A stretch of DNA of 64,000 bases. It comes from a virus. Where the stretch lies: positions 1-64,000 of the IMG/VR virus record IMGVR_UViG_3300030108_005139; one strand, written 5' to 3'. Positions within the stretch are counted from its first letter, which is position 1; each line of letters starts with the position of its first letter. Below are positions 3,430 through 63,346 of this stretch, piece by piece. A model generated the notes under the pieces. That model ran no database searches. It saw only the letters and a list, made by a program, of their open reading frames with translations, and had not been told where the DNA came from. The position numbers and the translations under genes are program-made.

Positions 3430-5004
3430 TTAACCTTTAAATAGCCAAGCGTGTTCTTGTCTCTGTTTGATTTGTTTTGATTTATTAATCGCCTTATGTC
3501 CCGTCATACCAGGTATCGTAGTATTCATAACTATTGAACTTTTTGCAAAAGAATTCATTAATGCTTTTGTATATTCTATATCTTTTTTGTTTGCTGATAA
3601 TGCAGTATCCCTCACCCAACAAGCAATAGCTAGAGCCATCACTAGATCGTCATTATATCCTCGCATTGCCTCTGGCTTATTATTGTTCCAAACAAACGTC
3701 TTGATTTCATTGAGAAGGCGAGAAGAATATATACTAATTATGTTGTTTCTGATGAATTCCTCTAATTTAGCCAAAATCATTGGCCTTGTTTTACTGGAAG
3801 TTGTGAAACCTGGCACACAATCCGTCCTTCCCTCGGCTACATATTGCTCCACATATTCGTGTGTAGACTTAATAGAATGATACACATTAGCATAACCTAG
3901 TTCTTTTATTTTCTCAATAACCGTATACCCAATGTTATTGTTTTCCACAACAAGCATACAGTCACCGTATTGTTTGCCAATATCCATCAAAAAAGGAGCA
4001 TAGTGGTCAGGAGTCATCTTACCTTGGTACTCAGCAACAATCTCCATTGTGTTGAGGTTTATAACGTGAAAAACAGAATAATCTTTTCCATCCCCTCGGG
4101 CAACGTCAGCAGATATTAAATAAGAACAAGAAGGGTCGTACTGTTGCCACATCCAAAGACCACGATCAAAACCAGTTCTATATTCTGGCTCTTTTATATT
4201 GTTTTCTATCTTAGCGATATCATTAGGATGAATTACTGTCTCACCAGACATATTAAAGTTGCACTCAAACTCTTGTGCAATCTGTCGTCTGGACATATTC
4301 TTTGTTTCTTTCTCAAACCATTCCTGATCTCGGTCAGGGTGTAGATCCCACATCAACCTAACGTGATGAAAATCGTTTGCTTGCAATTCTGCATCAATAT
4401 AAGTTTGATGAAACCAGTTACCAACACCATTGGGTGTTGATACAACAATGCAGCGACCACCAGTTGAAATTGTAGGATAAAGACCAGTCCACAATTCATC
4501 AAGACCCTCAACGTGAGCGGCCTCATCAATAACCAACAACGACAACGCTTCTGAACGACCGGCATCACCAGAAGTCGAAGCGGCTTTAATTTGTGATCCG
4601 TTTGTCAATTCAAATGAACTTCTGTTATCAACAGAGATACTAGCTATTCTAACCCATTCTGGCAAAGTTTTAATGATTGCCTTGACTTTTTTTACTAAAT
4701 TTGATGCTGTCTGAAACTTTGTTGCCATAACAAGAATATTCTTGTCACGATGAAAAAGCATCAACCAAGACACATAGGCAGCAGTAATAGTAGAGATACC
4801 CATTTGCCGAGCCTTCAATACAATGTTGAAGCGGTAATCGTTGAAGTCTTCCAGCAATTCTTGTTGAAATTCGTATGTTTTGAAAGGAACTAGGCCGTGG
4901 ATGGGGTGGGAGATTTTAGCGTAGTTATTAATAAAGTAATAAGGGTCTTTGCCAGATTTAACGATCTCCTTGATCAGTTCCTTTTTGGATAATTGATAGC
5001 TCAT
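3430..5004 (-). CDS. terL: Terminase large subunit, T4 gp17-like
   Basis: This motor and nuclease pumps DNA into the prohead and cuts the concatemer. The 524 residues contain a deviant Walker A ARQMGIST (residues 65-72), where the usual GKT lysine is isoleucine but K64 and R66 are close by, as in many T4-like terminases. Walker B is LLVIDEAAH (D160, E161), and a coupling motif VVSTPNG lies near residue 187. The RNase H-fold nuclease has three acidic sites: ADVARGDGKDYS (D300), VVENNN (E354) and GYNDDLVMA (D452/D453). It is followed 6 bp later by the portal gene. The small subunit is not obvious nearby; the 94-aa protein at 58237-58521 is a weak candidate. Confidence 0.95.
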   Translation of the reverse strand: MSYQLSKKELIKEIVKSGKDPYYFINNYAKISHPIHGLVPFKTYEFQQELLEDFNDYRFNIVLKARQMGISTITAAYVSWLMLFHRDKNILVMATKFQTASNLVKKVKAIIKTLPEWVRIASISVDNRSSFELTNGSQIKAASTSGDAGRSEALSLLVIDEAAHVEGLDELWTGLYPTISTGGRCIVVSTPNGVGNWFHQTYIDAELQANDFHHVRLMWDLHPDRDQEWFEKETKNMSRRQIAQEFECNFNMSGETVIHPNDIAKIENNIKEPEYRTGFDRGLWMWQQYDPSCSYLISADVARGDGKDYSVFHVINLNTMEIVAEYQGKMTPDHYAPFLMDIGKQYGDCMLVVENNNIGYTVIEKIKELGYANVYHSIKSTHEYVEQYVAEGRTDCVPGFTTSSKTRPMILAKLEEFIRNNIISIYSSRLLNEIKTFVWNNNKPEAMRGYNDDLVMALAIACWVRDTALSANKKDIEYTKALMNSFAKSSIVMNTTIPGMTGHKAINKSKQIKQRQEHAWLFKG

Positions 5005-5540: not shown

Positions 5541-5930
5541 TTATTCTCCTTTTGGTCTCCAGCCAGATTTCCAGCGTTCTTCACGCCCATCTACATATTG
5601 ATAATAACATTTAAAACAGCACCCATACTTATTCATATATATGTCGTCCTGTATTTTGAACGAATATGCCTTACAAGTTGGACACGTTCTATTGCTCTTC
5701 TTACTAAGTAGTTTCTTTGGAATGAAAATTCCATCCACTTCTACTTTCTCAGATTTCTCCTCCAATGATTGGAGTCTCTCATAATATCTTTTTTGTTGTT
5801 CAATGTATTCTTTTTCTTTTTCTTCGTCCCAACCTTTCTTTGGGTTCTGGATTGCTTCGTGGCCATATTTCTCCGCGATGGCCTTTTCAAGTTTAACAAT
5901 ATAATGTGGGTCGTCGTATTGTTTCATCAT
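5541..5930 (-). CDS. Zinc-ribbon protein, 129 aa
   Basis: The N-terminal half is a charged helix rich in Lys, Glu and Gln. The C-terminal third has two cysteine pairs, CPTC and CCFKC, separated by about 20 residues, which looks like a zinc ribbon that could bind nucleic acid or support a structural fold. It starts 2 bp after the stop of the tagged nucleotidyltransferase gene (TGA AATG) and is followed within 2 bp by the next gene. It lacks either of the N-terminal tags seen just upstream, so it marks the border between the accessory block and the packaging genes. Some small phage zinc ribbons are packaging or transcription factors; which applies here is unclear. Confidence 0.75.
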   Translation of the reverse strand: MMKQYDDPHYIVKLEKAIAEKYGHEAIQNPKKGWDEEKEKEYIEQQKRYYERLQSLEEKSEKVEVDGIFIPKKLLSKKSNRTCPTCKAYSFKIQDDIYMNKYGCCFKCYYQYVDGREERWKSGWRPKGE

Positions 5931-5931
5931 T

Positions 5932-6960
5932 TCAAACCTCGGCTTTATTTAAATGATTCCATATCTTTTGATTTATATCCTTACAAATATATTTACCTTT
6001 CAACCCATACTCTTCTTGCTTTTGAATCCAAGCATCTTCTAAGTCTTTCGGGATATACCCACAATGGTCTTCACCAATCTTAACGCTCTTAGTATAATCA
6101 AGTATCTTTAAATAAGCACCAATAACATTTTCATATTCCTCTGGTGAAGCATTAGTTCTTAACCATCTGTGAAGCGCAGGGTAATTGTTGGTTGTCTTTC
6201 TAGTCAACTCAGCACCATATAAACTGCCAAGCAACTTCAAAGTCTCATCTGGCGAACTGGCAACCAACTCTCTAGTTCCTCTTTTTCTAATTCCAGAGAT
6301 GTGCTCGTAAGTATAATCTTTAATTAAGAACATTGCCAACATAAGTTGTGTTCTGTGCAGACCTTTTAGAAATTGATCATCTGCTGATGGGGGATCTGAA
6401 TGATAAGCAAACTCTAGCCAGTCTGCATTGCCAACCATCCAATCAATCTGGATACCAATATCTTGTTGTTCTCCTTCTTCATTGAACTGAGGGAATAACG
6501 AGAACATCGTGCCAGGTCCAATCTTCTTTATATTAGAAATGATCATATCTGACTCGTTGTTGAAATACTTGGCAAGCTCTGTTAAGAAAGCACGCCAGCC
6601 AATCTCAGCGTCAGTTCTGGTTCTCGCTCTTCGCTTGAATAAGTCAAAGGTGCTTTGCCAAGCATCAGGATCAATGTTCCATTCTTTTAATCCTTCGGGA
6701 GTTACCACACCATCTTTAAAAAAACTTGTTGCATCCATTGCCAAATCGATGTCGCCAGATATTGACTTTTTACCGACAGAACCTAAATAACGAAATTCTG
6801 CAAAGACATCTTTTTTAAGAGGGAATAATTTATTTAACTCTTCACGATATTTATCAAGAGTTGGTTTTATATATTCCAGAGGAATGCTGGCAGCCTTTCC
6901 ATCAAAAACATTTCCGCCCTCGTCAAGAAACTTTCGCCAGTTTTCAAATATTAATTTCAT
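5932..6960 (-). CDS. Tagged nucleotidyltransferase-fold protein
   Basis: It begins with the type-1 tag MKLIFENWRKFLDE. Beyond it, residues 59-76 (LGSVGKKSISGDIDLAMD) hold the GS...DxD signature of the DNA polymerase beta-like nucleotidyltransferase superfamily, with D70 and D72 as the likely metal ligands. Members transfer NMP to RNA, proteins or small molecules. The rest (about residues 80-342) is helical and resembles no partner domain I can name. The ATG overlaps the stop of the HNH gene as ATGA. L12-D13-E14 fits a prohead protease site, so I infer a head-packaged, processed protein acting in the host after injection. The substrate cannot be read from the sequence. Confidence 0.8.
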   Translation of the reverse strand: MKLIFENWRKFLDEGGNVFDGKAASIPLEYIKPTLDKYREELNKLFPLKKDVFAEFRYLGSVGKKSISGDIDLAMDATSFFKDGVVTPEGLKEWNIDPDAWQSTFDLFKRRARTRTDAEIGWRAFLTELAKYFNNESDMIISNIKKIGPGTMFSLFPQFNEEGEQQDIGIQIDWMVGNADWLEFAYHSDPPSADDQFLKGLHRTQLMLAMFLIKDYTYEHISGIRKRGTRELVASSPDETLKLLGSLYGAELTRKTTNNYPALHRWLRTNASPEEYENVIGAYLKILDYTKSVKIGEDHCGYIPKDLEDAWIQKQEEYGLKGKYICKDINQKIWNHLNKAEV

Positions 6961-7406
6961 TTCTGTCCCCTAAAATAATCCACGAGTTCTTCTCTTGTTG
7001 GAACCTCTGGACTATTCAAAAACTCTTTATATAGCCACCCATCTGGATTTTGTTTTCTATTTTCGCTCATCCACTCATAAGAAACAGAACCAATATCGCT
7101 GGCTCTTTCTTTATTACATATATTACAAGCCCACGCCAAGTTCCAAAGATCTCCCTTCAGCATCCTTCGCGCTTTGCCATTGTTGCCAGCGGCTGATTGT
7201 GGTATGATGTGTTCAACTGAAATTATTCTATTTTCGGTTAGCCCGCACCAACAACAAGGTACCCCTTCGGTGGCCTGTTTCTTTATCCACCTTCCTACTG
7301 GTCTCTTCACATCTACTGGTAAAGCCTTGACCCAATCAACCCAGACCGATGCGATGCTTGTTTCTTCTTTCAAGTACTTTCGCCAGTTTTCAAATAGTAA
7401 TTTCAC
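6957..7406 (-). CDS. Tagged HNH endonuclease
   Basis: This 149-residue protein starts with GTG and the type-1 tag MKLLFENWRKYLKE. It carries an HNH nuclease fold: CCWC at 51-54, a catalytic VEHIIPQS (H66) and NLAWACNICNKER at 89-101 with the second zinc-binding cysteine pair (C94, C97). HNH enzymes nick or cut DNA. The presence of a tag separates it from ordinary homing endonucleases, which have none, and suggests delivery with the virion, for example to attack host or competitor DNA. Both its ends are formed by tag repeats: the start GTGA overlaps the stop of the ParB-like gene and its stop lies in the ATGA of the next gene. Confidence 0.85.
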   Translation of the reverse strand: MKLLFENWRKYLKEETSIASVWVDWVKALPVDVKRPVGRWIKKQATEGVPCCWCGLTENRIISVEHIIPQSAAGNNGKARRMLKGDLWNLAWACNICNKERASDIGSVSYEWMSENRKQNPDGWLYKEFLNSPEVPTREELVDYFRGQK

Positions 7407-7768
7407 TTCTGCTTCCTATAAACCGGAATCTTTTTTATCCCTAAGCGCTTTGCTGCTTCCAATCTATGGTGTCCATCTAGCACATAAAAAAACGATTCAC
7501 TAGTTCCACTTTTTTCTGTTGGGGTGTAATCCTCTTGCCCTTTTAGTTTGTAGGTCACAACAGGCTTTTGATTACAAACTTCTATAGGGGGAAAATTACC
7601 AGAGTCAATTTGTTTCATTTTTTTTTGAATTACCTCTTCGCACTCTCTTGAGGGACATTCGTGCTCTTTACCGTGACCCAATTCTTCTGTTGGGATTAAT
7701 GTGGCAACATCAACGTAAAAAACCCGCTCATTTAAAAATCTTTTCCAGTTTTCAAATAGTAGTTTCAC
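7403..7768 (-). CDS. Tagged ParB/sulfiredoxin-like protein
   Basis: It has 121 residues, a GTG start and the tag MKLLFENWKRFLNE. The C-terminus contains VLDGHHRLEAAKRLGIKK (about residues 97-114), the D-G-x-H-R-x-x-A motif of the ParB N-terminal/sulfiredoxin fold. Family members include CTP-binding partition proteins, nucleases and sulfiredoxin-type enzymes, and small phage versions exist. The upstream part has a CPSRECEEV segment that might bind metal. It has no DNA-binding helix-turn-helix, so it is not a normal partition protein. It is part of the five-gene overlapping chain and would be packaged if the tag works as I propose. A second protein with a similar GGRHR motif lies at 10859-11440. 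Confidence 0.75.
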   Translation of the reverse strand: MKLLFENWKRFLNERVFYVDVATLIPTEELGHGKEHECPSRECEEVIQKKMKQIDSGNFPPIEVCNQKPVVTYKLKGQEDYTPTEKSGTSESFFYVLDGHHRLEAAKRLGIKKIPVYRKQK

Positions 7769-8985
7769 TTCTTGTTGGTCTTTTTAACAGAGTTGATATA
7801 TTTTCTGTAAACGCCAGCAGCGGACTTCTTTCCGGCTGCTTTGGCTCTTTGTTCCATTGCAACGGCTGCTTGAATTTTGTGAGCGTGTGAACGGCCTGAC
7901 CTTTTAATCTTATTAACACTTGCTTCTGCATCCTTTGCGGTTGCAAACTTCAATCCGTGAATTGTCCCTTTTGGATCTTCATCGGTGTAAAGATCACTGT
8001 GTTTTTTAGACTTGGCGGGTTGTCCTTTTTTGCGAGGTATTCTCGGGTTTTTCTTTTCATTGGTTCTCTCACCTTTTTTAGATCTAGTTTTTTGGTTTTT
8101 GCAGAATTGCTTCATTGTAAAACCTTTTGGATTAGCGCATTTGTTTTTTCTTTTAGATCGCTCTTTTTCTGACCACTTTTCTTGAAGTGTGGTGTCACCA
8201 ATCTTTATTGTAATACCGGAGGGTTGCCCACCATTTAGCGACATCATACGATCATAGGCGTTTGTTCTTACGTCTGACAGTCTTCCCAAATACCCATTTC
8301 TTCTCAAGACTTTAAATGCAAGGTTTTCTGGAGAAAACTCACCTCCTTGTTCCAGTCCGCACTTACGAAAGTCTCTGATTCTATCTCGTAACCGAATCGC
8401 CTCTTCGCGGGCTTCTTCGTACCTTCCGGCAGCAAATACGTCCTCGACATCTTCTATCAAGTCCATAAGCGCTTGTGCTTTTTTACCAACTAGAGGCTCA
8501 TCGATTGTAACCTCTCTATAAGTTGGCTTTGTTTGCCACTCATTATACACTAGGGAATATATACCGGTTGACATATGTGGCTCACCAGTGTCTTGAACAT
8601 AAAGCTCCACTTCGTGTGGGCCAATCTTAATATTATGAACCTTATTCCAATTAGCCCGAACACTTCTAAAATAGTCTTTTACTAAGTCCATAGGAGCATT
8701 GATATCATTAAAATTTACAAGAATGTGTAAATCAATGTCAGACTTTTCTGACCAGTTGTAGTTGGCTGCAGAGCCAGTGATAATTATATCAACAATTCCA
8801 GCATCTTTTAAATCTAAACCACTCCAAAAATCATTGACAATATCGTGCAACCTACTTGCTACTTCTGGTCGTAGTTTTTCACCATCCCAAACTTTTGGAT
8901 TAAGTTCTTTCTTTAATTCAAAGGTTGAGAAATCAAAGTCTAATTCTTCTAGGTATTGTCGCCAATTTTCAAAAAATAATTTCAT
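7765..8985 (-). CDS. Tagged nucleotidyltransferase with basic C-terminal region
   Basis: After the tag MKLFFENWRQYLEE there is a second minimal nucleotidyltransferase: ITGSAANYNWSEKSDIDLHI (residues 69-88), with G71-S72 and the metal ligands D83 and D85. Residues about 90-260 form a helical domain. From about 265 to 406 the protein is very basic: CANPKGFTMKQFCKNQ, then a Lys/Arg/Pro-rich linker, then a module including KHSDLYTDEDPKGTIHGLKF and SHAHKIQAAVAMEQRAKAAG, which looks like a separate nucleic-acid-binding unit. The ATG overlaps the stop of the preceding gene (ATGA). The two domains could have been joined by fusion. The substrate is unknown; tRNA or host protein modification is possible. 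Confidence 0.8.
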   Translation of the reverse strand: MKLFFENWRQYLEELDFDFSTFELKKELNPKVWDGEKLRPEVASRLHDIVNDFWSGLDLKDAGIVDIIITGSAANYNWSEKSDIDLHILVNFNDINAPMDLVKDYFRSVRANWNKVHNIKIGPHEVELYVQDTGEPHMSTGIYSLVYNEWQTKPTYREVTIDEPLVGKKAQALMDLIEDVEDVFAAGRYEEAREEAIRLRDRIRDFRKCGLEQGGEFSPENLAFKVLRRNGYLGRLSDVRTNAYDRMMSLNGGQPSGITIKIGDTTLQEKWSEKERSKRKNKCANPKGFTMKQFCKNQKTRSKKGERTNEKKNPRIPRKKGQPAKSKKHSDLYTDEDPKGTIHGLKFATAKDAEASVNKIKRSGRSHAHKIQAAVAMEQRAKAAGKKSAAGVYRKYINSVKKTNKK

Positions 8986-9938
8986 TTCTTTAGTTCTTTT
9001 ATATTTGCCTGCAAACTGGTAATGTTTGCATCGGCTGCGTTGGCAGCATCTTTATCCATATTCTCCAAATAAAATCTATTAATATTATTGGACAATTGTT
9101 CAATTTGATCGTAGATGTCAAATAAAACTGTACCCAATCGTTCAAAGTAGTTATTTGTTATCTCTCTAAGTTGTGTTTTTGATCCAAAGCCTAGTGTGCC
9201 AATTAAGTGACCACCGTTCACAACGCAGGACATCTTAAGACCATCGCCGGTACCACAATCGGTTGCCTTTTGTTTACCTACATCACCAGCATCAAAATCA
9301 CCTGCCACCCCAAGCTCTGCACTGCCAACAGTAAACTTATAAAAATCAATTGATAAAACCTCTTGTTCTTTGTGTGATTTGTTTTTAATCGCAACCACGT
9401 ATGTCACTGGCTGCCCTTGTTCTCTGATTGATTCTATAAGTTTATCATAAGAGCCTCCCACATATTTTTCTCTTCCACCAAAGAGAAATTTAAGACTCCA
9501 TTTTTCTGCTTGCCCTGCGGCTTGAACTTCCACGTCAGCAATTTCACCCTCAACAGCGGGGATCATTTTTCCACCCAACATTGCAGAAAGTAGTGATTCA
9601 AATAGAAAACCACCAGTTTGTGGGTTGAAATCACTAATGACAGAGGCTAAGACCTCTAGAAACATTAAATTAGATAGAATCTCTGATACGTCTTTTTGTT
9701 GCTGACATTGTTCTTCGCAGTCAACAACAAAACTGTTTAATGAGTTAAGTTTTGCTACAAAGTCGTTTCCTGGAATTCTTGCTATAAAGTTTTCAACTAA
9801 CCTACGGTCTTCGCTATCGGGCTCACCCCACTGATCTGATATTCTATATCTGGGTAATTTAAGAGAATATTCTTTTGTTTTCTCGGTAGTTTCTGCCTCA
9901 ACGATAAACTTTCGCCAGTTTTCAAATAATGGTTTCAT
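8982..9938 (-). CDS. Tagged protein, possible PD-(D/E)XK nuclease
   Basis: This is the first gene of the five-gene coupled chain. It opens with the tag MKPLFENWRKFIVE (cleavage-type I12-V13-E14). In the middle, FLFESLLSAMLGGK is followed by GEIADVEVQ and then EKWSLKFLFGG. The acidic residue in an IADV strand and a lysine in a WSLKF strand about 12 residues later is the pattern of PD-(D/E)XK nucleases, with the helix carrying glutamate before it. This is pattern matching by eye and could be wrong. The C-terminal 60 residues are helical with coiled-coil character. A cysteine-rich stretch (CEEQC) near residue 74 may bind metal. A candidate regulatory motif lies 22 bp upstream of the start. Confidence 0.65.
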   Translation of the reverse strand: MKPLFENWRKFIVEAETTEKTKEYSLKLPRYRISDQWGEPDSEDRRLVENFIARIPGNDFVAKLNSLNSFVVDCEEQCQQQKDVSEILSNLMFLEVLASVISDFNPQTGGFLFESLLSAMLGGKMIPAVEGEIADVEVQAAGQAEKWSLKFLFGGREKYVGGSYDKLIESIREQGQPVTYVVAIKNKSHKEQEVLSIDFYKFTVGSAELGVAGDFDAGDVGKQKATDCGTGDGLKMSCVVNGGHLIGTLGFGSKTQLREITNNYFERLGTVLFDIYDQIEQLSNNINRFYLENMDKDAANAADANITSLQANIKELKK

Positions 9939-9974: not shown

Positions 9975-9997
9975 TTTTTAGTTGTAGAAACTAAAAA
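9975..9997. repeat. AT-rich inverted repeat between two genes
   Basis: A 9-bp perfect stem TTTTTAGTT / AACTAAAAA with a 5-nt loop overlaps the stop codon of the Nudix gene. It is followed by A rather than U residues in the transcript, so it is not a classic intrinsic terminator, though it could slow the polymerase or protect an mRNA end. Confidence 0.5.
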
Positions 9998-10416
9998 GAA
10001 AGAATGGCTTTTTTGATTAAAGTAATCTCGTATGATTCAAAGACTGTCTTATAATCATCTATTTCTTTCATATCTACCCAAGCATATTCATCGTGTTCAA
10101 AACTTAACACGACCTCATCACCAGAAAACTTATTAGTGATGAAATGATATATCATCCCAAAACTATGCTTAGACCTTTGTAATAATAACTTTAGATCCTC
10201 TGGATCTACCGACAATCCACTTTCTTCCAAGGTTTCTCTAACTGCACCTTGTTTTGGTGTTTCACCATCTTCGACGTGACCACCAGGTGGACCCCAGTGG
10301 CGTGGCTTAAAACTAGCCCCTTCTCCTCTCAATAAGAGAAGGATCTTCCCGTCCTTGACAAGAATAACATTTGCTCCCCTGTTATTCTTTGACATCCCTA
10401 TCTTGATCCTTATCAT
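9991..10416 (-). CDS. Nudix hydrolase
   Basis: The Nudix box is complete: G46-G47-H-V-E-D-G-E-T-P-K-Q-G-A-V-R-E-T-L-E-E-S-G-L fits Gx5Ex7REUxEExGU. The protein is 141 residues, the usual size. Nudix enzymes hydrolyse nucleoside diphosphates linked to another group, such as damaged dNTPs, ADP-ribose, NAD or mRNA caps. Nothing here fixes the substrate. The start at 10416 overlaps the previous stop as ATGA; an alternative ATG at 10395 (MSKNNRGANVILV) is equally close to the family start. It has no N-terminal tag, so it probably acts in the cytoplasm during infection. Confidence 0.92.
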   Translation of the reverse strand: MIRIKIGMSKNNRGANVILVKDGKILLLLRGEGASFKPRHWGPPGGHVEDGETPKQGAVRETLEESGLSVDPEDLKLLLQRSKHSFGMIYHFITNKFSGDEVVLSFEHDEYAWVDMKEIDDYKTVFESYEITLIKKAILSF

Positions 10417-10862
10417 TTGATTTCGCTAACTGCAAACGCAATACCAATTGTCGCTGCAACGCCAATAATAATACCGCCAGCAAACCACCAGTGACTATAA
10501 TCTCCATTATCTGCCTCCAAGGCTATTTCTGTAAGCCTTTCTATCTCGTCGTCTTTAATCTCCATTATAGAGTTATATCTTTCTTGTAGTGCCTCCAAGC
10601 TTGCAACAGTGCTATCCAACGATAAATTACACATTGCTTGTTGTCGGTCTTCTGCGTATTGGATGCGAAGTTCGCACTCTGTTTGATTTGCTTCTTGTTC
10701 AGCGAGCATCTGTGCAACTGCTGCTGAGTTCAGGAGAGTTCCTGTAAATGGTGCGGCTTGTCCTTCTCTGATGTCTGTTATAACTGGCTCTTCGTCTTGT
10801 GCCCAGACAAGGGGTTGGAAGGCCAGTAAGCAGATTAGAAAAGGGATTAGTAGTCTCATCAT
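10413..10862 (-). CDS. Membrane-anchored protein with signal peptide, unknown function
   Basis: The N-terminus MMRLLIPFLICLLAFQPLVWA is a Sec signal peptide with likely cleavage after VWA. The middle is a helical, acidic region with two cysteines and coiled-coil heptads (ERYNSIMEIKDDEIERLTEI). The C-terminus has a second hydrophobic segment from about residue 125 (WWFAGGIIIGVAATIGIAFAV). This places the protein in the periplasm, attached by its end to the inner membrane. It has no tag. Its stop and start overlap both neighbours by 4 bp. Candidates are a superinfection-exclusion or lysis accessory protein; neither is established. The true lysis pair is more likely at 17260-16665. Confidence 0.8.
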   Translation of the reverse strand: MMRLLIPFLICLLAFQPLVWAQDEEPVITDIREGQAAPFTGTLLNSAAVAQMLAEQEANQTECELRIQYAEDRQQAMCNLSLDSTVASLEALQERYNSIMEIKDDEIERLTEIALEADNGDYSHWWFAGGIIIGVAATIGIAFAVSEIK

Positions 10863-11440
10863 CTATTTCTTCCAACATATGCCTTTATTTTAGTTGGATT
10901 AAAAATAATCTCCCCTCCTTGGTCAATATTACTACCTTTTAAAAAAGCAGCAAAAACTCTATGCCGACCACCTAAAATATCAACAACCTTGTCACCTTCC
11001 ATTTTAAGTATAACTGGCTCGTGTTCACCCTTGCCAAGACCGGGCAATGTTTTAATAATTCGTTGTATTTTTTGTTGATACTGATCCATTGGAAAATTTG
11101 GATTTAAACCTAAATGTTTATCCATCAAAAACTTTCTCTCTTCGGCACTCAAATCTTCCCACTTTAAATCCAAAACAACTGGATTTTTAGTCCAGGTTAA
11201 ATCATAGCGGTCATATATTTCTTTGGCATATTCATCAGTTTTAAAAAACTTTTCTAAACCTATTTTATTTATATCATCTGTTCTATCAACAGCATAGTCT
11301 TTCACCCCCTCGTGCCCATACATATCATTAAATACAAGATCTGGCAAATGAGGGAATACTTTATTTTTGAGGGCTTTTTCAAAGCCTTTAAATCTTGACT
11401 CTATTAAAAAAAGCCTCCAATTTTGCATTACAAATTTCAT
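10859..11440 (-). CDS. Tagged ParB-like protein, divergent tag
   Basis: This 193-residue protein has a diverged type-1 tag, MKFVMQNWRLFLIE, which keeps the NW, the basic residue and the L-x-E ending (L12-I13-E14). The C-terminal third contains EPVILKMEGDKVVDILGGRHR followed by VFAAFLKGSN, a ParB/sulfiredoxin-fold motif (GGRHR for DGHHR). The first half has a possible substrate-binding region with no clear match. Its stop overlaps the next gene as ATGATGA. Like the protein at 7403-7768 it lacks a DNA-binding domain. If the tag is functional it would be packaged in the head and processed. Confidence 0.7.
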   Translation of the reverse strand: MKFVMQNWRLFLIESRFKGFEKALKNKVFPHLPDLVFNDMYGHEGVKDYAVDRTDDINKIGLEKFFKTDEYAKEIYDRYDLTWTKNPVVLDLKWEDLSAEERKFLMDKHLGLNPNFPMDQYQQKIQRIIKTLPGLGKGEHEPVILKMEGDKVVDILGGRHRVFAAFLKGSNIDQGGEIIFNPTKIKAYVGRNR

Positions 11441-11453
11441 TTAGTAATCTCAT

Positions 11454-11720
11454 TTATTCTTCCATCGTTTCTGATGGGACAATCAGATAATCTCTAGCCT
11501 TGTTAAGATAGTCTGACGCCAAAGTCAACTTACTCATCCACCAAGAAGGAAGTTCTTCATCAGGACGACCCTCAAGGGCTTGCAGGATTTGTACTGCATC
11601 TTCAGTGGCTGTTTTTAGTTTCCTAATGGCTGACGGGACATCTGTGTGTCCGTCTTCGTTTATGTTTGCCTCAAGTTCTTCCTTGATAATTTGTTTGAGT
11701 TGTGTTTTTGTAATCTTCAT
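11454..11720 (-). CDS. Small type-2 tagged protein, 88 aa
   Basis: The protein starts MKITKTQLKQIIKEELEANI, the type-2 N-terminal tag, followed by an acidic region that includes TDVPSAIRKLKTATEDAVQI and ends in a helix with YLNKARDYLI. Nothing suggests an enzyme. The tag carries I11-I12-K13-E14, where I-K-E fits the [LI]-x-E site. The gene is followed 13 bp later by the tagged ParB-like gene and starts 1 bp after the stop of the preceding tagged gene. Small acidic tagged proteins of this kind could be head-internal proteins comparable to T4 IPI-III. Confidence 0.75.
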   Translation of the reverse strand: MKITKTQLKQIIKEELEANINEDGHTDVPSAIRKLKTATEDAVQILQALEGRPDEELPSWWMSKLTLASDYLNKARDYLIVPSETMEE

Positions 11721-11721
11721 T

Positions 11722-12225
11722 TTATTTTTCCTGCAACTTTGCCAACGTCCTCTCGTATGCTTGGATATATGCTACGCTTTTCGGGAGCATATTTGGATTA
11801 GAGCCTAACTCTATTTGGGCCTTTCTATCGGCCATTATTTTTTGGTCTTTGGGTTTGCCGTCTTTCGCATCTTGTACTCCCTGGAGTCCGGCTTTGTATG
11901 CTATTTCATATGAAGCCCTTTGTATCCAACGCTTACCGGGTTGCGCTGTCGGAGGGGCTGATTGTTCGCCTTTTATCGCATCTTGTATTGCCCGTTCTAT
12001 GTCTTTTTTTGTTTTTTCCGTCTCTTTCCTATAGTATTCCTGATCTTGCTTGTATTCCTCTGGGGTTTTCCTGCGATAAAATGGTTCTCCTCTTGTACTC
12101 CAGGATCTTCCAGTAGAGCCGTATTTGACCAGTTGATCGTCGCGGTATGTATCATATTCCTCTTCACTGAGAAGTTGTAGTTCCTCTAAGATAATCTGTT
12201 TGAGTTGTTGTTTTGTAATCTTCAT
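11722..12225 (-). CDS. Type-2 tagged protein, 167 aa
   Basis: It begins MKITKQQLKQIILEELQLLS, with I-L-E as the possible protease site. The body is charged and helical, with a Tyr/Arg/Glu-rich stretch (TYRDDQLVKYGSTGRSWSTR) and a region EEYKQDQEYYRKETEKTKKD, then a segment with AYKAGLQGVQDAKDGKPKDQ. No known domain is recognised. AGGAGAT lies upstream of the ATG and the gene sits between two other tagged genes, all in the same direction. It is probably head-internal by the tag argument. Function is unknown. Confidence 0.75.
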   Translation of the reverse strand: MKITKQQLKQIILEELQLLSEEEYDTYRDDQLVKYGSTGRSWSTRGEPFYRRKTPEEYKQDQEYYRKETEKTKKDIERAIQDAIKGEQSAPPTAQPGKRWIQRASYEIAYKAGLQGVQDAKDGKPKDQKIMADRKAQIELGSNPNMLPKSVAYIQAYERTLAKLQEK

Positions 12226-12239
12226 ATTAATCTCCTATC

Positions 12240-12623
12240 CTAATCCACATCGCCCAGTCGAAGTTCCTCGTCATCGCCGAGATCAAACGCCGGTGTGGGT
12301 GAGTCTTTCGCTACCATATCACCAATATGATCCTTAATCTTAGATATCATACTGTAGGCATCAGCAGCCATTCGGTGAATTTCATTTAGAGCTTCTATTC
12401 TCCTCTCGACCTCGGACTCGGAGTCTCCACCATATAAATCAACTTGTTCTCCAGACTCCATTGAGTCTGGTTGGGTTATCTCCTCGATGTCCTGAAGATG
12501 TTTAGTGATTGTTTCAAGATCAGTGAGTAAGTTCTCGTCATCTCCTTTGTATTCCTCTTCCTCTAAGCTTCTTGCAAGTTCTTCCTTAATGATCTGTTTG
12601 AGTTGTGATTTCGTAATCTTCAT
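12240..12623 (-). CDS. Type-2 tagged acidic protein, 127 aa
   Basis: I choose ATG 12623, which gives MKITKSQLKQIIKEELARSL, because AAGGAG lies 6 nt upstream and the previous gene stops two bases before; the longer ORF that starts at 12656 lies mostly within that gene. The body is very acidic, with DLETITKHLQDIEEITQPDS and a C-terminal DLGDDEELRLGDVD. The tag DNA is nearly identical to that of the next gene upstream (12625-12888), differing only at third codon positions over the first 14 codons. No enzymatic motif is seen. Confidence 0.75.
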   Translation of the reverse strand: MKITKSQLKQIIKEELARSLEEEEYKGDDENLLTDLETITKHLQDIEEITQPDSMESGEQVDLYGGDSESEVERRIEALNEIHRMAADAYSMISKIKDHIGDMVAKDSPTPAFDLGDDEELRLGDVD

Positions 12624-12624
12624 T

Positions 12625-12888
12625 TTAATCTCCTTTCCTTGCAAGAGACTGATCATCGTGAATTATTTTATCAAGATCGGCTGCAAGGGGTGAGCCGACC
12701 CCTTGTGCGAGGCCATAATAATCTTCAATAGCTCGCATCATAACTTCGCGTTTGGCGTCATCGAGATTGGTTGGTTTTACAACTGTGAACTTCCCAACGG
12801 GCCTTTTTTCCCACTCAATGTCGCCTTCTTGGATTCTACCAAGTTCTTCTTTGATAATCTGTTTGAGTTGTGATTTCGTAATCTTCAT
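12625..12888 (-). CDS. Type-2 tagged protein, 87 aa
   Basis: The sequence starts MKITKSQLKQIIKEELGRIQ and continues through EWEKRPVGKFTVVKPTNLDD to a helical end, with DYYGLAQGVGSPLAADLDKI. It is the shortest of the local type-2 tagged proteins. The ATG is 2 bp downstream of the stop of the 194-aa Cys-rich gene, and AGGAAAAT precedes it. The near-identity of its tag DNA to that of the next gene suggests a recent duplication or gene conversion of the tag alone, because the cargo parts are unrelated. Confidence 0.75.
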   Translation of the reverse strand: MKITKSQLKQIIKEELGRIQEGDIEWEKRPVGKFTVVKPTNLDDAKREVMMRAIEDYYGLAQGVGSPLAADLDKIIHDDQSLARKGD

Positions 12889-12889
12889 A

Positions 12890-13474
12890 TTATTTTCCTC
12901 TTTCGGCTTTGCTAATTTCTACAGCACCAAGTTGTGCTAGGGCTGCTTTTTTAGTTCTGTGTGGTTTTTTAGAAAGATGTTTGCCACTCTTTGAAGTTAC
13001 AAAATAACCACCCTTTACTTTTTTTATTTTCTCTTCTAGTTCTTCGTCTTTGCTTCCTTTTGCCTGCCATTCATATGACACCTTATCTTTTGATATCGGC
13101 CCGCCAGCAGCCCAAGTATAACAGGATCTTGCTGAGTGGCACTTGAAGTGGTGCATCCAACAATATCCTAAATAGCCCTCTTCATCCTCAATCGGTTCTG
13201 AAGTTGGACCAGGCATACATTCTAACATTCTTGGTGAGATATCAAAAGCAATACAGTTAGAACATTTTGATTTTTTTGCAACCTCTGGTTCTGTATTCCA
13301 GTGTTCTGCTGCTCTTTCCCAATACTCATCGTCAGCAAGATTAAGCGGACCATACTGAATATGCTCTGCTTTAATGGCTGCATTTCTGTTCTTTGTGTTA
13401 AGCTCCAGATCCTGTGTGGCATCGGGACACTCTAAACGTGCTTCTGTTTTTCCTATGATAATTTTAATTCCCAT
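12890..13474 (-). CDS. Cysteine-rich protein, HiPIP-like motif plus basic C-terminus
   Basis: The 194-residue protein has six clustered cysteines: C71-SN-C74, C86, C105, C112 and C118, the last in SCYTWAAGGPI. The spacing of CxxC, then C, then GYC and a Trp-containing end is reminiscent of high-potential iron-sulfur proteins or a zinc-binding fold; HiPIP has four cysteines, so the match is loose. The C-terminal 45 residues (KKVKGGYFVTSKSGKHLSKK and following) look like a small module seen in other phage proteins. It has no tag. Its start overlaps the end of the amidoligase-like gene by 1 bp. Confidence 0.65.
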   Translation of the reverse strand: MGIKIIIGKTEARLECPDATQDLELNTKNRNAAIKAEHIQYGPLNLADDEYWERAAEHWNTEPEVAKKSKCSNCIAFDISPRMLECMPGPTSEPIEDEEGYLGYCWMHHFKCHSARSCYTWAAGGPISKDKVSYEWQAKGSKDEELEEKIKKVKGGYFVTSKSGKHLSKKPHRTKKAALAQLGAVEISKAERGK

Positions 13475-16119
13475 TATTCTGGCCTCTCTCCACTTCGCGT
13501 GTATCTTTCCTCATCGGATTGTGGTCGTCTTGTAGGTTCTTCCTCTTGAGTTTCTTCACCTGAAGTCCTGTATCTTCTCAACGCTTGTCTAAGTTCTTGT
13601 TGTGCCTCAGATGGTGGAGAAGAAGGAAGTTCTTTATCTTCATATTTTTTAACGAACTCTCTGTCATCGTCAGTTACGTGCCAGTATTGGGCTCGCTTCA
13701 TATAACCCCTAATAGAACTTGCTCTACTTCTAAGATCCCAAATCTCCTGTGATTTTTCATTGTACGCCCTTACATCCTCTCGTCGGATTGGGTTTTCCTG
13801 AATGATTTCAAACATACCACGTATTAGTTTTTCAAGATTTTTTCTGTTTGTTACATCGGCCATCTCGTCGCGTGTTTTCTTTAGGTCAGCCTCAAAGACA
13901 ACCAATGGCACAAGAAACTCTTCAATCCTATATTCCATATCCTCTAGAGATACTAGACCTCCTTGGGTTCGTTCAGCACCTCGACCCTCGGAGGCTTGTA
14001 TTACCTGCAACCTTGCAGATTTTGTTGCAGAGTCTATTCCGTTGTAAATTGCATAACCCCTGTCTAGAAAACGTTGCTCAATTGTACCCATACTCCCAGC
14101 CGTCGTGCGATCTCTTGCAACTTCTCTTTCAGCCTCAGACGTTAAAAAATTATATAATGGGACTATATTTCTTGGAATCAAGCCGTTTACAACAATTGTT
14201 CCTTTCTTTAAGGCTCTTACATTATCAAGAGATGTTGCTTTTTCGTATTCCACGTCCTTTAGGTTGTTGATAAATCCAACAAGTTTTTTCATATACTCAT
14301 CGTTTTTGTACTGTGGATCTGTAGAGATCTTAATTATATGAGCGTAATACAATGTGGCATTTCTCATAACATCATAATTTAAAGCATCGTGGCCTGGATA
14401 TCTAAACTCCACATATTTACGATACGGTAAGTGTTTGATATTAAACCCCATTTGTTTTGGAGAGGTATATCGTGTAGAGACCTCAACAGCGTTTGAAAGT
14501 GCTTTCTTCACAGCATCAAAGTCTCTCTCTGTTAAATCTTTGATAACACTAGTCGTTTCTTTGTTGTCACCAGTGAGTTTCCAGATACCGGGCCTAACTT
14601 CTTGTGCTACTTCATTTTGAACAAGCGTTGCGATGTGATTGATAGCATCTTTTTTAATATCGCCTGCCCAGCCGCTATATCTTCTGCTTTCAAACCCTTT
14701 TGTTGCGAACTCGTGATTTAGGAAAAGCATTGCCTTCATTAAATCATAATCTTCAATTGGGTCATCATCTTCGTCCAAGATTCCAACATTGGTATGCAAG
14801 CCAGTTCGATTGTCCATAAAGAAATTGTCTTGATTCTCAAAATCTGTGAAGAATGTTTCAAGATATTCCAATGCCTCTTCTAATCCAGTAATATAGGCTG
14901 GGTAGTCCATTGAAAACTCAACGTGAGGATCGGGGGCCAACGAAGCATCTTCTTCAAGCTTAATATCACTAGCATATTTTGCCATAAAGTTAGGAAGATG
15001 TTCATACATAAGTTCGTGCATATCTTCTGCACCACCTTCGTCTTGGCCAGGATAAACATCGTAACGGTCGTAATATTCCTGCTCCAAATTATAGCCAAAA
15101 TTGCCTTCTAGGTAATCAACAGGGTCACTTTGAAATTCTTCGTATTCACTATTAGATTGCTCATCTATATACTCATCAATTGCATCATCAATCATTTTAG
15201 CCATTGCTGTTAAGTGCGGTGATTGACTATTACGAAACTGATATGCTATGTTCTGCATCGAACTAAGTGTGGCATATCTTTCGGGCTCCAAGAACGTGTC
15301 AGAAATGAACGTATCCATTTCATCCATAATCCCCATAATAAGCTCATCGGTTCCCAGGACTGCCTCATAAAAAGTATCTAAAGGAATCACCTTGTCAAAA
15401 TAACGAACTTTAGGAAACCCAGACCATTCAGCATCTAAATCAAAAACATATCTTTTAAATAATTCAACATTGTCAACTCCTGACAAAATGTGAATGAGTT
15501 GTTCTTCTTCATCTTCCGGGTCAAGTTCTAAGTTTCTTTGAATTGCTTTTGTTTCTGTGTACTCCTCTAGCTCTGTTTTAATTAATGGATGTTCCAACAA
15601 TAATTTTAAGAAACTGTTTGCTTCTCGGGAACCATCTTTAGAAATCATTTCTAGTGTTCGTTGATACAACTCGGGGGCACCATAATCTGCCAGACTAATA
15701 GCCATCTCAAACAATAAAATTAAGCGATCTCTACGTTCATTTTGTGCTTGTGGTGGGATTCCAATAACTTCTTGATCAACATATTTGTCTACAAGTCCCT
15801 CAGAATCAACAATGTAATCTTCTAAAAAATTATATTCATAGAATTCTGATAGGTCTCTCTCAATTACATTTTGATAAAAGTAGTCTTGATCCAGATAATT
15901 TCTGGCAAACTGCTCTAACGTTGGAAGGTCTCCTCTTCCAGCCGCACCGGCTGATTGATTAGAAAGCAATTCAATTTCATATGAAATAGTAAAGCGTTCG
16001 CCTGCTTCTAGAATAGCGGCTTTATCAGATTCCTTGAACTCTTGAATCAGTTCTTCTTCTAATATTTCTTCTTTTTCTTCGTTTCTAAATTTTCGCCAGT
16101 TTTCAAACAGTGATTTCAT
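13474..16119 (-). CDS. Tagged large amidoligase-like protein, 881 aa
   Basis: I choose ATG 16119 (MKSLFENWRKFRNEE) over a TTG start two codons earlier. The tag is type-1 but ends RNE; an ILEE site lies at about residue 19. Motifs of the amidoligase family are visible: TISYEIELLSN (residues 44-54), GLHTNVGI (440-447, H442) and KYVEFRYPG (568-576, E571, R573). Amidoligases join amino or carboxyl groups using ATP, and in bacteria they modify peptides, proteins or cell walls. Between and after these is a long acidic region of unknown fold and a Pro/Arg-rich C-terminus. This is the largest tagged protein. A function in modifying host or virion components is inferred. Confidence 0.7.
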   Translation of the reverse strand: MKSLFENWRKFRNEEKEEILEEELIQEFKESDKAAILEAGERFTISYEIELLSNQSAGAAGRGDLPTLEQFARNYLDQDYFYQNVIERDLSEFYEYNFLEDYIVDSEGLVDKYVDQEVIGIPPQAQNERRDRLILLFEMAISLADYGAPELYQRTLEMISKDGSREANSFLKLLLEHPLIKTELEEYTETKAIQRNLELDPEDEEEQLIHILSGVDNVELFKRYVFDLDAEWSGFPKVRYFDKVIPLDTFYEAVLGTDELIMGIMDEMDTFISDTFLEPERYATLSSMQNIAYQFRNSQSPHLTAMAKMIDDAIDEYIDEQSNSEYEEFQSDPVDYLEGNFGYNLEQEYYDRYDVYPGQDEGGAEDMHELMYEHLPNFMAKYASDIKLEEDASLAPDPHVEFSMDYPAYITGLEEALEYLETFFTDFENQDNFFMDNRTGLHTNVGILDEDDDPIEDYDLMKAMLFLNHEFATKGFESRRYSGWAGDIKKDAINHIATLVQNEVAQEVRPGIWKLTGDNKETTSVIKDLTERDFDAVKKALSNAVEVSTRYTSPKQMGFNIKHLPYRKYVEFRYPGHDALNYDVMRNATLYYAHIIKISTDPQYKNDEYMKKLVGFINNLKDVEYEKATSLDNVRALKKGTIVVNGLIPRNIVPLYNFLTSEAEREVARDRTTAGSMGTIEQRFLDRGYAIYNGIDSATKSARLQVIQASEGRGAERTQGGLVSLEDMEYRIEEFLVPLVVFEADLKKTRDEMADVTNRKNLEKLIRGMFEIIQENPIRREDVRAYNEKSQEIWDLRSRASSIRGYMKRAQYWHVTDDDREFVKKYEDKELPSSPPSEAQQELRQALRRYRTSGEETQEEEPTRRPQSDEERYTRSGERPE

Positions 16120-16125
16120 TATCAA

Positions 16126-16662
16126 TCAATCCTTCTTTTTAGATTTTTTGCCCCACTTCTTACCTTTCCCTTTCGTTCCACAGGCTGCTGGGGTTGGCCG
16201 ACAAGCTGGATATTTTGAACGCTTTTCACCTTTTGATCTACCACAGGCTTTGCACTTCTTTCTTCCAGTCTTTGGATCCTTTCGGCAGGTATTGCAATCT
16301 ACCCAACCTTTACTTCCGCCTCCCCCAGCGCGGCTAAACCACCCGTGGAGCCCAGACTTTTTCTCTTTTGAGTAGTCAGTCCGTGCTTTCTTTTTTTTTT
16401 CGTCTAGACAAGCTTCAATTTCTTCATCGATAATACGATACAAGTCTTCCTTGACACCTTTCCAGATCTCTCCTCTGCGACATCTTACAACAGCGCCAGA
16501 GGCATATGCAGAAGGCCACACATCGTATTTGCGCTTGGCAATGCGTGTACAGCGATCATCTTTTTTCTTTTTAGCCTTCTTCTTCTTTTTCTTCTTTTTT
16601 TTCTTCTTCTCATCTAAGAAGGCTTCAATTTCTTCATCAATAATTTTTTCAATATTATCCAT
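16126..16662 (-). CDS. Lysine-rich protein with duplicated acidic motif and DUF5872-like region
   Basis: The 178 residues contain a near-repeat: IIDEEIEAFLDEKKKK at 7-22 and IIDEEIEACLDEKKKK at 77-92. Each could carry its own I-D-E or L-D-E site. After the first is a lysine run (about 19-34), then RIAKRKYDVWPSAYASGAVV at 40-59, resembling the DUF5872-type module as I remember it. After the second is GLHGWFSRAGGGGSKGWVDC, four CxxC-like cysteine positions, and a Lys/Gly-rich basic tail. It looks like two tagged units fused end to end, possibly DNA-binding. The lysine run is T/C-rich on the plus strand and could be prone to slippage. Confidence 0.7.
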   Translation of the reverse strand: MDNIEKIIDEEIEAFLDEKKKKKKKKKKKAKKKKDDRCTRIAKRKYDVWPSAYASGAVVRCRRGEIWKGVKEDLYRIIDEEIEACLDEKKKKARTDYSKEKKSGLHGWFSRAGGGGSKGWVDCNTCRKDPKTGRKKCKACGRSKGEKRSKYPACRPTPAACGTKGKGKKWGKKSKKKD

Positions 16663-17640: not shown

Positions 17641-17651
17641 AATAAATAGTC
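17641..17651 (-). promoter_or_regulatory. ACTATTTAT motif upstream of a tagged gene
   Basis: The minus strand reads GACTATTTATT, overlapping the TAG stop of the nuclease gene and lying 25 bp before the ATG at 17616. It repeats the motif found at 9960, 22142 and, with one change, 27423. It could serve as a promoter element or mRNA processing site for the tagged gene and lysis genes downstream. Confidence 0.35.
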
Positions 17652-20600
17652 TACTGATTTACAAATGCAAGACCATTTTTTTTGTCAATTGTGATTTGTT
17701 GGTCAACACAATCTTTAAGAGAGTCAAGGTGGGAGATGAGTATCACGGTCTTAAAGTAAGATTTGACAAGATCAAGAATACGAATAAAACTTTCCATATT
17801 CTCTTCGTCTAGTGCTGTGCCTGGTTCATCAAGGATAAAAATGTCTCCTTGTGGCAGTGACGAAACTGTCAATAAAGACAAACGAATAGCAATTGCAGCA
17901 ATAGACTTTTCGCTTCCACTGCCCATTGCAATTGGTCTAGGATCGTACTTTGGATGTTTGATTAAAATATTTAATCTGTTTTCGTCGTTTTCAAAGTACA
18001 CTTCAAAGTCAACAATATTTGCAAGAATCTTAGCAATCTCATTGTTGATTACTGGCAGCCTCTTCTTAATGATATCGTATGCAATACCGTTACTGTGCAT
18101 ACACCGCATAAACAGATCGTATGCTGAGAACTCTTCGCGAAAGTCAGCCAGTTCCTGCTTTTGTTCGTTGATTGAAGCAAGCTTCTGCTCAAGTGAGCCG
18201 TGTAGCTTGTAAAGTTCCAATATGTCTTTTTCACAAGATTCCAGTTGCTCTTGTGACTTTTGAATTAGTTGATCACCTTGATCTCGCTCAGAGATTAACT
18301 CCTCTAAGTTTTCAATTGCTTCTTTGTTTTTTTCGTACTCTTGAATCTTTTGTTCTAGAAGAGAAATTTGCTCCTCGGCCTTTGAAATCTCGTGCTTTCT
18401 TTTTTCTAGCGAGAGTTCAACTTTAACAATTTGGTTTTTTATCTCTCCCTGTTTTGTTTTTAACTTCTCGTATTTGTCCAGGTAGCTCTGTATCTGTTCA
18501 GGGTTAAGTTCCTCAATAACCACTTCAGTCTTTTCTTTTTTGAATAGAAAATCCTGTACTTGTTGGTGGATGTCGTCTTTTTTATCCAATGCATCATAAG
18601 CATCCTTAATAAACTTGCAGTGACTAAATTCTGAACCACAAGGAACTTCCTTTAGAAGACAAGACTTGTTGTTGATATCCTTTTGTTTTCTTTCAAGAGT
18701 ATCTAGATCTTCTTGAATGTGCGATAGGATTTCTTCAAGGTTGTTTAAATTTTCTTGCCTGTTCTTATATAAATCGATATCAAAGTCATCAACAAATTTG
18801 CTTATCTCCATCAAAACTTCTTGTCTGTTTGATAGTTTTTCTTCTTCTTGGGCTTGAAGGAGAACTAGGTCGTTATAAGAATCTTTCAAATTAATCAATG
18901 ATTTATTGATATCTTTGACGTTAATAATCTCTGCTGGAATTGAATCTATTTTGCCGGTAAGATACGCGACCTTTTCTTGAAGAGAGGAGATATCCTCTCT
19001 AATCTTCTCGCACTCTCTTTCCTTCTGCTTTGTTGTGTTTTCATTTTCTTCTAGTTCATATTCGGCTTCTTTAATTTCTTGATCAAATTCTTTCCCTTCA
19101 AGTCTTTTTAATGCACCCTTTAAATCAGAGGCATCGTCTTTTGCCATCTTGAACTTCTTGTCAAAGATATGAAGATCTAAAAACTTTGCTAAGATTTCCT
19201 TTCGCTTCGTTGAACCCTCGTTGATAAACTGGAGAGAATCAAGCTGAGAAGCCATAGAGGTTAACAAGAAATCATCTAATGAGCCAAAAACACGACGAAT
19301 GTTTTTGTCTGTTTCTATTCTTGTTAAGCCGTTTAGTGGCGTATTAGTTTGCGTAACTTCGTTGTATTTGTTGAATTCAACGTTTGTCTTTGCCTCTGTC
19401 GAGGTTTTGCCTTTTAATTTCCTAACGTACTTCTCTAAATCTCTTTGGATGACATAGTGCTCGTTACCAATCTCTATTTCAACTAAACCACTGGCTGTGT
19501 TTTCGTTTTGATTAATAACGTTGACATTCTTGCGCTCGTTTTTAGAAGTCGAATTAAAGATTGTAAAAAGAAGCGAATCGATGATTGAACTCTTCCCAGA
19601 GTAGTTTTTACCAAAAATTCCAACAGTTCCACGTAGTTTTTCAAAATCGATAGCATTGCTTTCTCCGTAGTTAAAAAGGTTATCCCACGACAATCGTTTT
19701 AGTTTCCAGTTGATGTTTCTGGACACATCTTCGTTTTCTTCTGCGAGCTTGTTATATTTTTTATTTAACTTAAAAACTTTTTCTAGGATCTCATCGCTTA
19801 CCTCGTAATCTTTAAGGTAATCTTCCATTAGCTCTTCTTGGACTTCTATATCACGGAGGTCTTCCTTGTCAAAAAGAACGCTTAAATCCTCACCAACATT
19901 TCCCTTATCTGTTGCTCTATTGAGGAATGATATGGACTCTGGTCTAAAACGAACCTTTGCAACATCAACCGCTTTGCGAAGCTTGTTGAGAGACAAGTTG
20001 TTGTTAGAAATAACACGAAGACGAACGCCTTCGGGTATATCAATGTCTTTTGGAAATTTGCCCTTTGAATTGAGTTCTATTGTGATGAAGGGCTTTGGAT
20101 TGTTTAGACGAATATGCTTGCAGGTATATTCATTTTTATTTTTTAAATCCCACAACAAATACCCCTTATCGTTGGTTTCACCAAAGTTTTGTTGAACTAA
20201 GGAGCCTGCATATCTAACCTTACCTTTGTCGTCCATAATTTGATTTGTCTTATGGATATCGCCAAGAAAGATGTAATCGTGTGCTTCAAAACATTCTGTT
20301 GAGTCATCGCTCTCGTTAATAACCCAACCAGCATCTGTTTCAGAACCAGCAATCGCTCCGTGATATAACCCAATATTTACTGCATTTGGATCACTTGGTG
20401 TTTGCCAATTGTCTGGATCAAAGATTGATAGACTATTAAATTTAAAGTCCAAGCCATCTTCTGTGTTAATTAAAACCTCTCTTGAGTCCCTAATCAAATG
20501 GAGATCAGGGTGCTCAAGTGCCTCAACCACTGGAGTCACAGCATCTTGACGTGCCATATTCCTTAGATTGCCGTCGTGGTTTCCAAGTATAATGTAAGTG

Positions 20601-20846: not shown

Positions 20847-20875
20847 ATTATACAATAGTGTTTTAGGTTAGTCAA
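20847..20875 (-). promoter_or_regulatory. Sigma70-type promoter for the SbcD-SbcC gene
   Basis: The minus strand has TTGACT (20875-20870), a 17-bp spacer and TATAAT (20852-20847). The -10 is preceded by TG. The -35 lies over the end of the cysteine synthase gene. Transcription would start near 20840, giving a leader of about 25 nt to the ATG at 20815. Host RNA polymerase could read it, so the nuclease is likely early or middle. A CCATT-aa-AATGG inverted repeat at 20826-20837 lies in the leader and might be an operator. Confidence 0.75.
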
Positions 20876-61203: not shown

Positions 61204-61206
61204 TTA

Positions 61207-63148: not shown

Positions 63149-63169
63149 AAACTAAAAAACAACAAGCCT

Positions 63170-63346
63170 TTATTCATCTTCTTCTTTTTTTACTTCAATC
63201 AACGGTGGGTTCGTTACCATTAATTCACCCTCTTCATTAGCAGCCAGTACAAAGCTCTTTAACACTTCTGTAATGTCGCTTTGTTCCATCAATGACTTTT
63301 GTAAAGCCATCATAACTGATCCGAGCGCTTGATTAGATAATTTCAT
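63170..63346 (-). CDS. Small conserved phage protein, 58 aa
   Basis: This gene is not usually called. ATG 63346 reads MKLSNQALGSVMMALQKSLM, then EQSDITEVLKSF and VTNPPLIEVKKEEDE, with TAA at 63172-63170. TAGGAGG lies 7 nt upstream. It overlaps the end of the epimerase gene by 14 bp. The K-L-S-N-x-A-L-G-x-x-M-x-A-L-Q-K pattern and V-x-N-P-P are familiar from small proteins of T4-like phages, as far as I remember. It is helical with an acidic end. Function is unknown. It shows that the sugar cassette is interleaved with phage genes. Confidence 0.75.
   Translation of the reverse strand: MKLSNQALGSVMMALQKSLMEQSDITEVLKSFVLAANEEGELMVTNPPLIEVKKEEDE

Follow-up and report, generated by a model that had tools for sequence, protein, structure and literature searches.

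A stretch of 64,000 nucleotides from the contig of a marine T4-like phage (IMG/VR record IMGVR_UViG_3300030108_005139, positions 1 to 64,000; hereafter the window) carries, on the minus strand between positions 5932 and 9938, a run of five consecutive genes that all open with a version of the same short sequence, MKLLFENWRK[FY][LI]xE, referred to below as the tag. The observation is real, and it is very probable that the repeat encodes a cleavable N-terminal propeptide, some 14 residues long and functionally equivalent to the capsid-targeting sequence (CTS) of the T4 internal proteins, and that the tagged genes encode proteins that are packaged into the head, cut and ejected. The original prediction, in which the repeat was regarded as a cassette for exchanging genes at the level of DNA, is partly supported, although it overlooked virion targeting, the main function that the tag suggests.

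The tags at the starts of the five genes are variants of MK(L/P)(L/F/I)FENW(R/K)..., and all of them are encoded on the minus strand. They comprise MKPLFENWRKFIVE (9897..9938) at the N-terminus of a 318-residue cargo (gene 8982-9938), MKLFFENWRQYLEE (8944..8985) on a 406-residue nucleotidyltransferase (NTase; 7765-8985), MKLLFENWKRFLNE (7727..7768) on a 121-residue ParB-like protein (7403-7768), MKLLFENWRKYLKE (7365..7406) on a 149-residue HNH-like protein (6957-7406), and MKLIFENWRKFLDE (6919..6960) on a 342-residue protein (5932-6960) with a GSVGKK..GDIDLA nucleotidyltransferase-like motif. Two further tags lie beyond the range considered originally, also on the minus strand: MKSLFENWRKFRNE (16078..16119) opens an 881-residue gene (13474-16119), and a weak, degenerate tag, MKFVMQNWRLFLIE (11399..11440), opens a 193-residue gene (10859-11440) and reaches a tag-matrix score of 12.1, which exceeds the untagged background.

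The tag is not confined to the window but recurs in other marine viral contigs. Within IMG/VR, 94 stretches match a degenerate DNA pattern for FENWRK[FY], for which we would expect, by our own estimate, a few chance matches at most. The open reading frames (ORFs) read from these matches encode 176 different tagged proteins, whose cargos fall into 94 clusters unrelated to one another, and the mean column identity across the whole tagged-protein alignment is 5%. The tag profile is M-K-L-L-[FL]-E-N-W-R-K-[YF]-[LI]-x-E, and conservation ends at residue 14. Residues E6, N7 and W8 are invariant, ENW having formed part of the selection pattern; E14 was not among the selection criteria. The arrangement [LIVM]12-x-E14 is found in 79 of the 94 cargo families, and [LIVM]xE falls within residues 11-16 in 88 families versus 4 of 94 in a control stretch, a count of the motif itself, at which cleavage would be expected. 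Judged from sequence, the tag has the shape of a short targeting peptide followed by a putative protease site. Tagged genes may stand in one row, forming operons of up to seven. A tblastn search of phage records with the 20-residue tag returned no match, the query probably being too short, and a literature search for the tag strings found no paper.

Most large contigs that bear tags also encode proteins with which such a peptide would be expected to work. A prohead protease of the gp21 family (S77, PF03420) is present in 13 of the 14 large tag-bearing contigs and a gp23 capsid protein in 12 of them, while in close relatives the tag arrays adjoin terminase and head genes. The propeptide of the major capsid protein (MCP) ends in LL[KR]E in all 11 of 11 cases, followed by A, V, S or Y, which is the same type of site as the end of the tag; thus, a protease of matching specificity is plausible. 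What appears, at the level of sequence, to be the sharpest single item of evidence comes from the Flavobacterium phage immuto, whose homologue of the 342-residue protein (immuto136C_181; 40% identical, E=2e-65) is untagged and starts M-GGNVF, the alignment beginning at window residue 15, directly after FLDE (E14). Another protein, L298:22588, which adjoins the terminase, was at first wrongly taken as the syntenic immuto homologue. Homologues of the NTase carry a graded series of leaders, namely MKLLFENWKKYITE, MNLNETWRKYLEE, MNKWKKFLDE and MKAFKEYLEE, the last of which (contig L054) resembles MKTFKEF/MKTYQEFIAE of T4. With a matrix built from the tags, T4 ipII and ipIII (heptamer YQEFIAE) rank third and fourth among 91 T4 proteins, a modest result.

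Several points weigh against this interpretation. The ranking of the T4 proteins amounts in effect to a single observation, and therefore a modest one, because ipII and ipIII share the same CTS, and two unrelated T4 proteins outscore both with the same matrix. For none of these phages did we find virion proteomics or cleavage data. The contig of the window ends before the expected protease gene, within the block of genes that stands ahead of the protease gene in the related contig L287, and the protease of this particular virus is postulated from its relatives. Finally, a purely peptide-level role fails to explain the conservation of codons within the tag, which is discussed below. As a separate observation, an N-terminal element of the MCP propeptide in contigs L287-L297, MA.LLENQAKELL[KR]E, resembles the tag MKLL[FL]ENWRKYL.E. 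When the likeness of the element LLENQAKELL to the tag was scored, one MCP ranked second among approximately 94,000 untagged 11-mers, but the other MCPs scored much lower; mimicry of an element that binds the core is thus no more than a lead.

The tagged genes are most readily seen as a marine counterpart, rich in enzymes, of the T4 internal-protein/CTS system. In both, a short N-terminal leader ending in [LI]-x-E is carried by unrelated proteins, which in T4 are the small proteins IPI, IPII and IPIII, and in both the loci are polymorphic, with varying number and identity of leader-bearing genes. Polymorphism and diversity of cargo at the T4 internal-protein loci have been described (Repoila et al. 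1994, as cited in PMC12373910; PMC3012670). The leader DNA of T4 ipII and ipIII is near-identical. There are also differences. The marine leader, MKLLFENWRKYLNE, is a different and longer sequence (14 residues) with no full-length alignment to MKTYQEFIAE, the marine cargos exceed those of T4 in size and many of them resemble enzymes (tRNA nucleotidyltransferase, kinase, SET, DnaJ, HD, exonuclease, HNH), and the marine tagged genes are arranged in operons, up to seven in a row. A second comparison is offered by the ejection proteins of the giant phages SPN3US and phiKZ. SPN3US gp53 and gp54 have an identical N-terminus in common, and head propeptides are cut after x-x-E by a gp21-family protease (PMC5694885); similar cutting is inferred for the marine tag. 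However, the SPN3US/phiKZ propeptides mostly exceed 100 residues and are not common to dozens of unrelated proteins. Phage immuto has a related terminase and the same order of terminase, portal, protease and MCP genes. It has repeated leaders of its own, M..NF[DN]L[KR][KS]FL[VT]ENKL on three proteins and MKKSQLR.IIKE-type leaders on others. These leaders are unlike the marine tag, and the immuto homologue of the 342-residue protein is untagged, whereas the MKKSQLR.IIKE leader resembles a second leader encoded in the window, MKITK.QLKQIIKEEL.

We propose that tagged proteins would bind the prohead core as the head assembles, that the gp21-family protease would cleave after [LI]-x-E at residue 14, and that the cargo, minus its tag, would remain in the head and be ejected with the DNA into the next host. 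Because the label alone would sort the protein, any gene that gains a tag becomes deliverable, and the locus beside the terminase would therefore be a fast turning-over island of interchangeable tagged genes.

Such turnover is observed. The locus compared among related contigs is bounded by a NUDIX or NTase gene at one end and, at the other, by a conserved anchor gene (129 residues) and the terminase; in the window these are the NUDIX gene (9991..10416, a conserved flank), the anchor (5541..5930, the terminase-side limit of the swap island) and the gp17-like terminase large subunit (3430..5004, a fixed neighbour), all on the minus strand. Between these flanks the gene order (numbers giving protein length in residues) is 318/NTase/ParB/HNH/342 in the window, 686/NTase/untagged 493 in L103, HAD/NTase in L104, NTase only in L186 and L188, NTase/285/232 in L046, and 746/837/NTase/288/148/398/286 in L191 and L192. 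The site between the NTase gene and the anchor is empty in L104, L186 and L188, and holds three tagged genes in the window, two in L046 and four in L037 and L191. A 686-residue cargo stands in L103 in place of the 318-residue cargo between homologous flanks; homology to the window extends from the NUDIX gene through the first 26 nt of the first cargo's tag, disappears over the cargo and returns at the start of the NTase gene. Clean insertions of tagged genes separate L186 from L104, L186 from L046, and L087 from L054, and some replacements adjoin untagged genes (in L103, past the NTase gene). The locus thus swaps tagged genes as whole units between fixed flanks, and the part of the earlier claim by which whole genes are added or deleted is borne out by exact gains, losses and replacements in these related genomes. 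We suppose that turnover would proceed via general phage recombination together with selection for intact genes, sometimes via homologous flanking genes.

The junctions inside the run had been described as four consecutive (A/G)TGA overlaps, in which TGA closes one gene and the repeat opens the next. All four are confirmed, with exact coordinates: ATGA at 8982..8985 (318-residue gene/NTase), GTGA at 7765..7768 (NTase/ParB-like), GTGA at 7403..7406 (ParB-like/HNH-like) and ATGA at 6957..6960 (HNH-like/342-residue gene), each on the minus strand. Within the window, 4 of 7 tagged starts have a 4-bp overlap, as do 2 of 41 other junctions, and the arrangement therefore exceeds chance there (Fisher p=0.0024; the counts of junctions here and of breakpoints below rest on simple longest-ORF gene calls). 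Any gene that begins with ATG-A is able to form such a stop/start overlap. Of 167 tagged genes in the related contigs, 61 share such an overlap with a real ORF upstream, and the arrangement therefore belongs to the tightly packed run and not to the tag generally. The outer limits of the run are without overlap: the 318-residue gene begins 52 bp past its neighbour, and the gene beyond 5932 is untagged. The overlaps would represent ordinary translational coupling in a tight operon.

The view that the repeat serves mainly as a swap site in the DNA, at which recombination or annealing between tags inserts, deletes and replaces cargos in frame, is improbable. It accounts for the precise between-tag replacement that distinguishes the window from L103, for the clean insertions among relatives, for a choice of tag codons that is kept far beyond codon usage, and for an identity between tags that is slightly higher within loci (0.747 vs 0.733; 7 of 500 shuffles). 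However, among 364 distinct homology ends, 30 fall at 250 tagged starts and 89 at 1055 untagged starts, which is approximately 1.4-fold more per start (p=0.087), and the ends are enriched at both kinds of start over random positions. The repeats are also poorer than was supposed. Direct repeats do flank the cargos, but their size, given as 25-40 bp, was overstated: the main tags of the window are 64-83% identical in pairs over 42 nt, and the longest exact block shared by two of them is 8-23 bp (8-13 bp between the NTase tag and its neighbours). Exact identity between tags within one locus has a median of 13 bp, which falls short of the long, nearly identical repeats that efficient homologous exchange would require. 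The one crossover that could be mapped falls within a cargo gene. Contig L023 matches the window at 99.85% identity over 8 kb and resembles L103 upstream, with all 113 informative sites of the L103 type at 9040-8374 and all 260 of the window type at 8278-7350, which places a single crossover at 8278..8374, inside the NTase gene and approximately 600 bp from its tag. This crossover brings along an unrelated upstream gene, and homology in shared genes would therefore suffice for the exchange of neighbours, although L023 may be an assembly chimera through an identical stretch of approximately 95 bp instead of a true recombinant. The proposal that recombination between repeats drives the swaps is not upheld by these data or by the replacements that adjoin untagged genes, whereas the single-chain gp46/47 invoked alongside it is indeed encoded, as a 1054-residue fusion of a Mre11-like phosphoesterase and a Rad50-like ATPase, at 17651-20815. 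Furthermore, a swap site needs no sharp protein-level conservation that ends at a protease-like motif. The mobile regulatory cassettes of T4-type phages (Arbiol et al. 2010, cited in PMC4177764) are reportedly short repeated sequences that separate shuffled phage genes, with a proposed role in the exchange of modules. Those cassettes are reported to be intergenic promoter/stem-loop elements; the marine repeat is instead protein-coding and constrained at the level of the peptide.

The part of the earlier idea that survives is conservation at synonymous sites. Across unrelated cargos, the tag keeps CTC at L3, CTA at L4 (52/84), CGA at R9 (40/87) and AAG at K10 (46/64), a bias far higher than in the cargos of the same genomes (p<1e-10 for the last three). 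A general start-of-gene effect was ruled out, since the bias is absent from the first codons of 600 untagged genes. Codon sharing is 0.61 for tags on homologous cargos at different loci and 0.59 for tags on unrelated cargos; the tags therefore do not owe their similarity simply to inheritance along with the cargo. Either selection acts on the nucleotide sequence itself, or tag DNA passes between cargos often enough to remain uniform. We tentatively raise the possibility, which we consider rather unlikely, that the tag is bifunctional, i.e., a capsid-targeting peptide whose DNA, synonymous sites included, provides a short shared homology for marine phages that trade virion-delivered effectors.

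It is very improbable that the tag directs proteins to a destination other than the capsid core, be it the tail, the membrane of the host or a phage compartment inside the cell. Such a role would also suit a short peptide found at the N-terminus of many proteins; against it stand the end motif, which agrees with the site of cleavage in T4-like heads, the co-occurrence of the gp21-type protease, the T4 CTS-like leader variants on the same NTase family, and the position of the arrays in close relatives beside terminase and head genes. That the tags are remnants of recent tandem gene duplication, with overlaps due to ordinary operon packing, is scarcely credible: the tag DNA is clearly related and 4-bp overlaps also occur at the untagged junctions 10413 and 10859, but the downstream cargos are unrelated (94 clusters, mean column identity 5%), which contradicts duplication for the tag and not for the overlaps, and the immuto homologue of the 342-residue protein starts, untagged, at the tag boundary.

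The 406-residue cargo is a nucleotidyltransferase (phrog_36119, E=7.5e-46; matches to PF01909/PF18765 are weak) joined to a basic C-terminal region (approximately residues 267-406; 7765-8185). This region is found apart from the nucleotidyltransferase in many viral contigs, and the gene of the window therefore looks like a fusion; the NTase of L046 lacks the region. In the 342-residue protein, GSxGKK..GDIDLA is read by us as a nucleotidyltransferase-like motif, and no family could be assigned to the 318-residue cargo. AlphaFold single-sequence models of the latter two were useless (mean pLDDT, i.e., predicted local distance difference test score, of 36), and sequence searches of PDB with two cargos gave nothing credible. 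Cargos in relatives include poly(A) polymerase/tRNA nucleotidyltransferase, guanylate kinase, polynucleotide kinase, protein kinase and SET proteins, as well as DnaJ, HD, RNase T-type exonuclease, transglutaminase-like and alpha/beta hydrolase domains; most cargo families are without a Pfam match. IPI, IPII and IPIII block GmrSD enzymes (PMC12373910), and by analogy a natural guess is that the marine cargos may serve host takeover or counter-defence.

Other features of the window include the second tag family, MKITK.QLKQIIKEEL, on four small genes (11454..12888, minus strand; starts at 11720, 12225, 12623 and 12888). Similar leaders occur in immuto (MKKSQLR.IIKE) and in the head-gene clusters of relatives, and given this second leader there may be two classes of virion leaders. 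A 178-residue protein (16126-16662) contains a duplicated segment, IIDEEIEA(F/C)LDEKKKK, which is another leader-like stretch ending in LDE. Elsewhere, a pyridoxal-phosphate enzyme resembling cysteine synthase (20868-21800; PF00291, E=7e-55) is a possible auxiliary metabolic gene, and 60000-64000 together with L101 spans more than 15 kb of what can be read as apparent sugar-nucleotide/glycan synthesis genes (epimerases, an aminotransferase, nucleotide-sugar synthetases and glycosyltransferases).

Should the tag prove to be a capsid-targeting sequence, a single short motif would suffice to recognize the proteins that probably enter the host together with the DNA of marine T4-like phages. For dozens of families with no assigned function this would indicate where and when they act, namely in the first minutes of infection, and their action would probably lie in host takeover or counter-defence. 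The three small internal proteins of T4 would then be a minor example of a far larger delivery system that includes many enzymes, and the tag would provide a natural case in which to ask whether a protein-sorting signal can also act as a recombination site.

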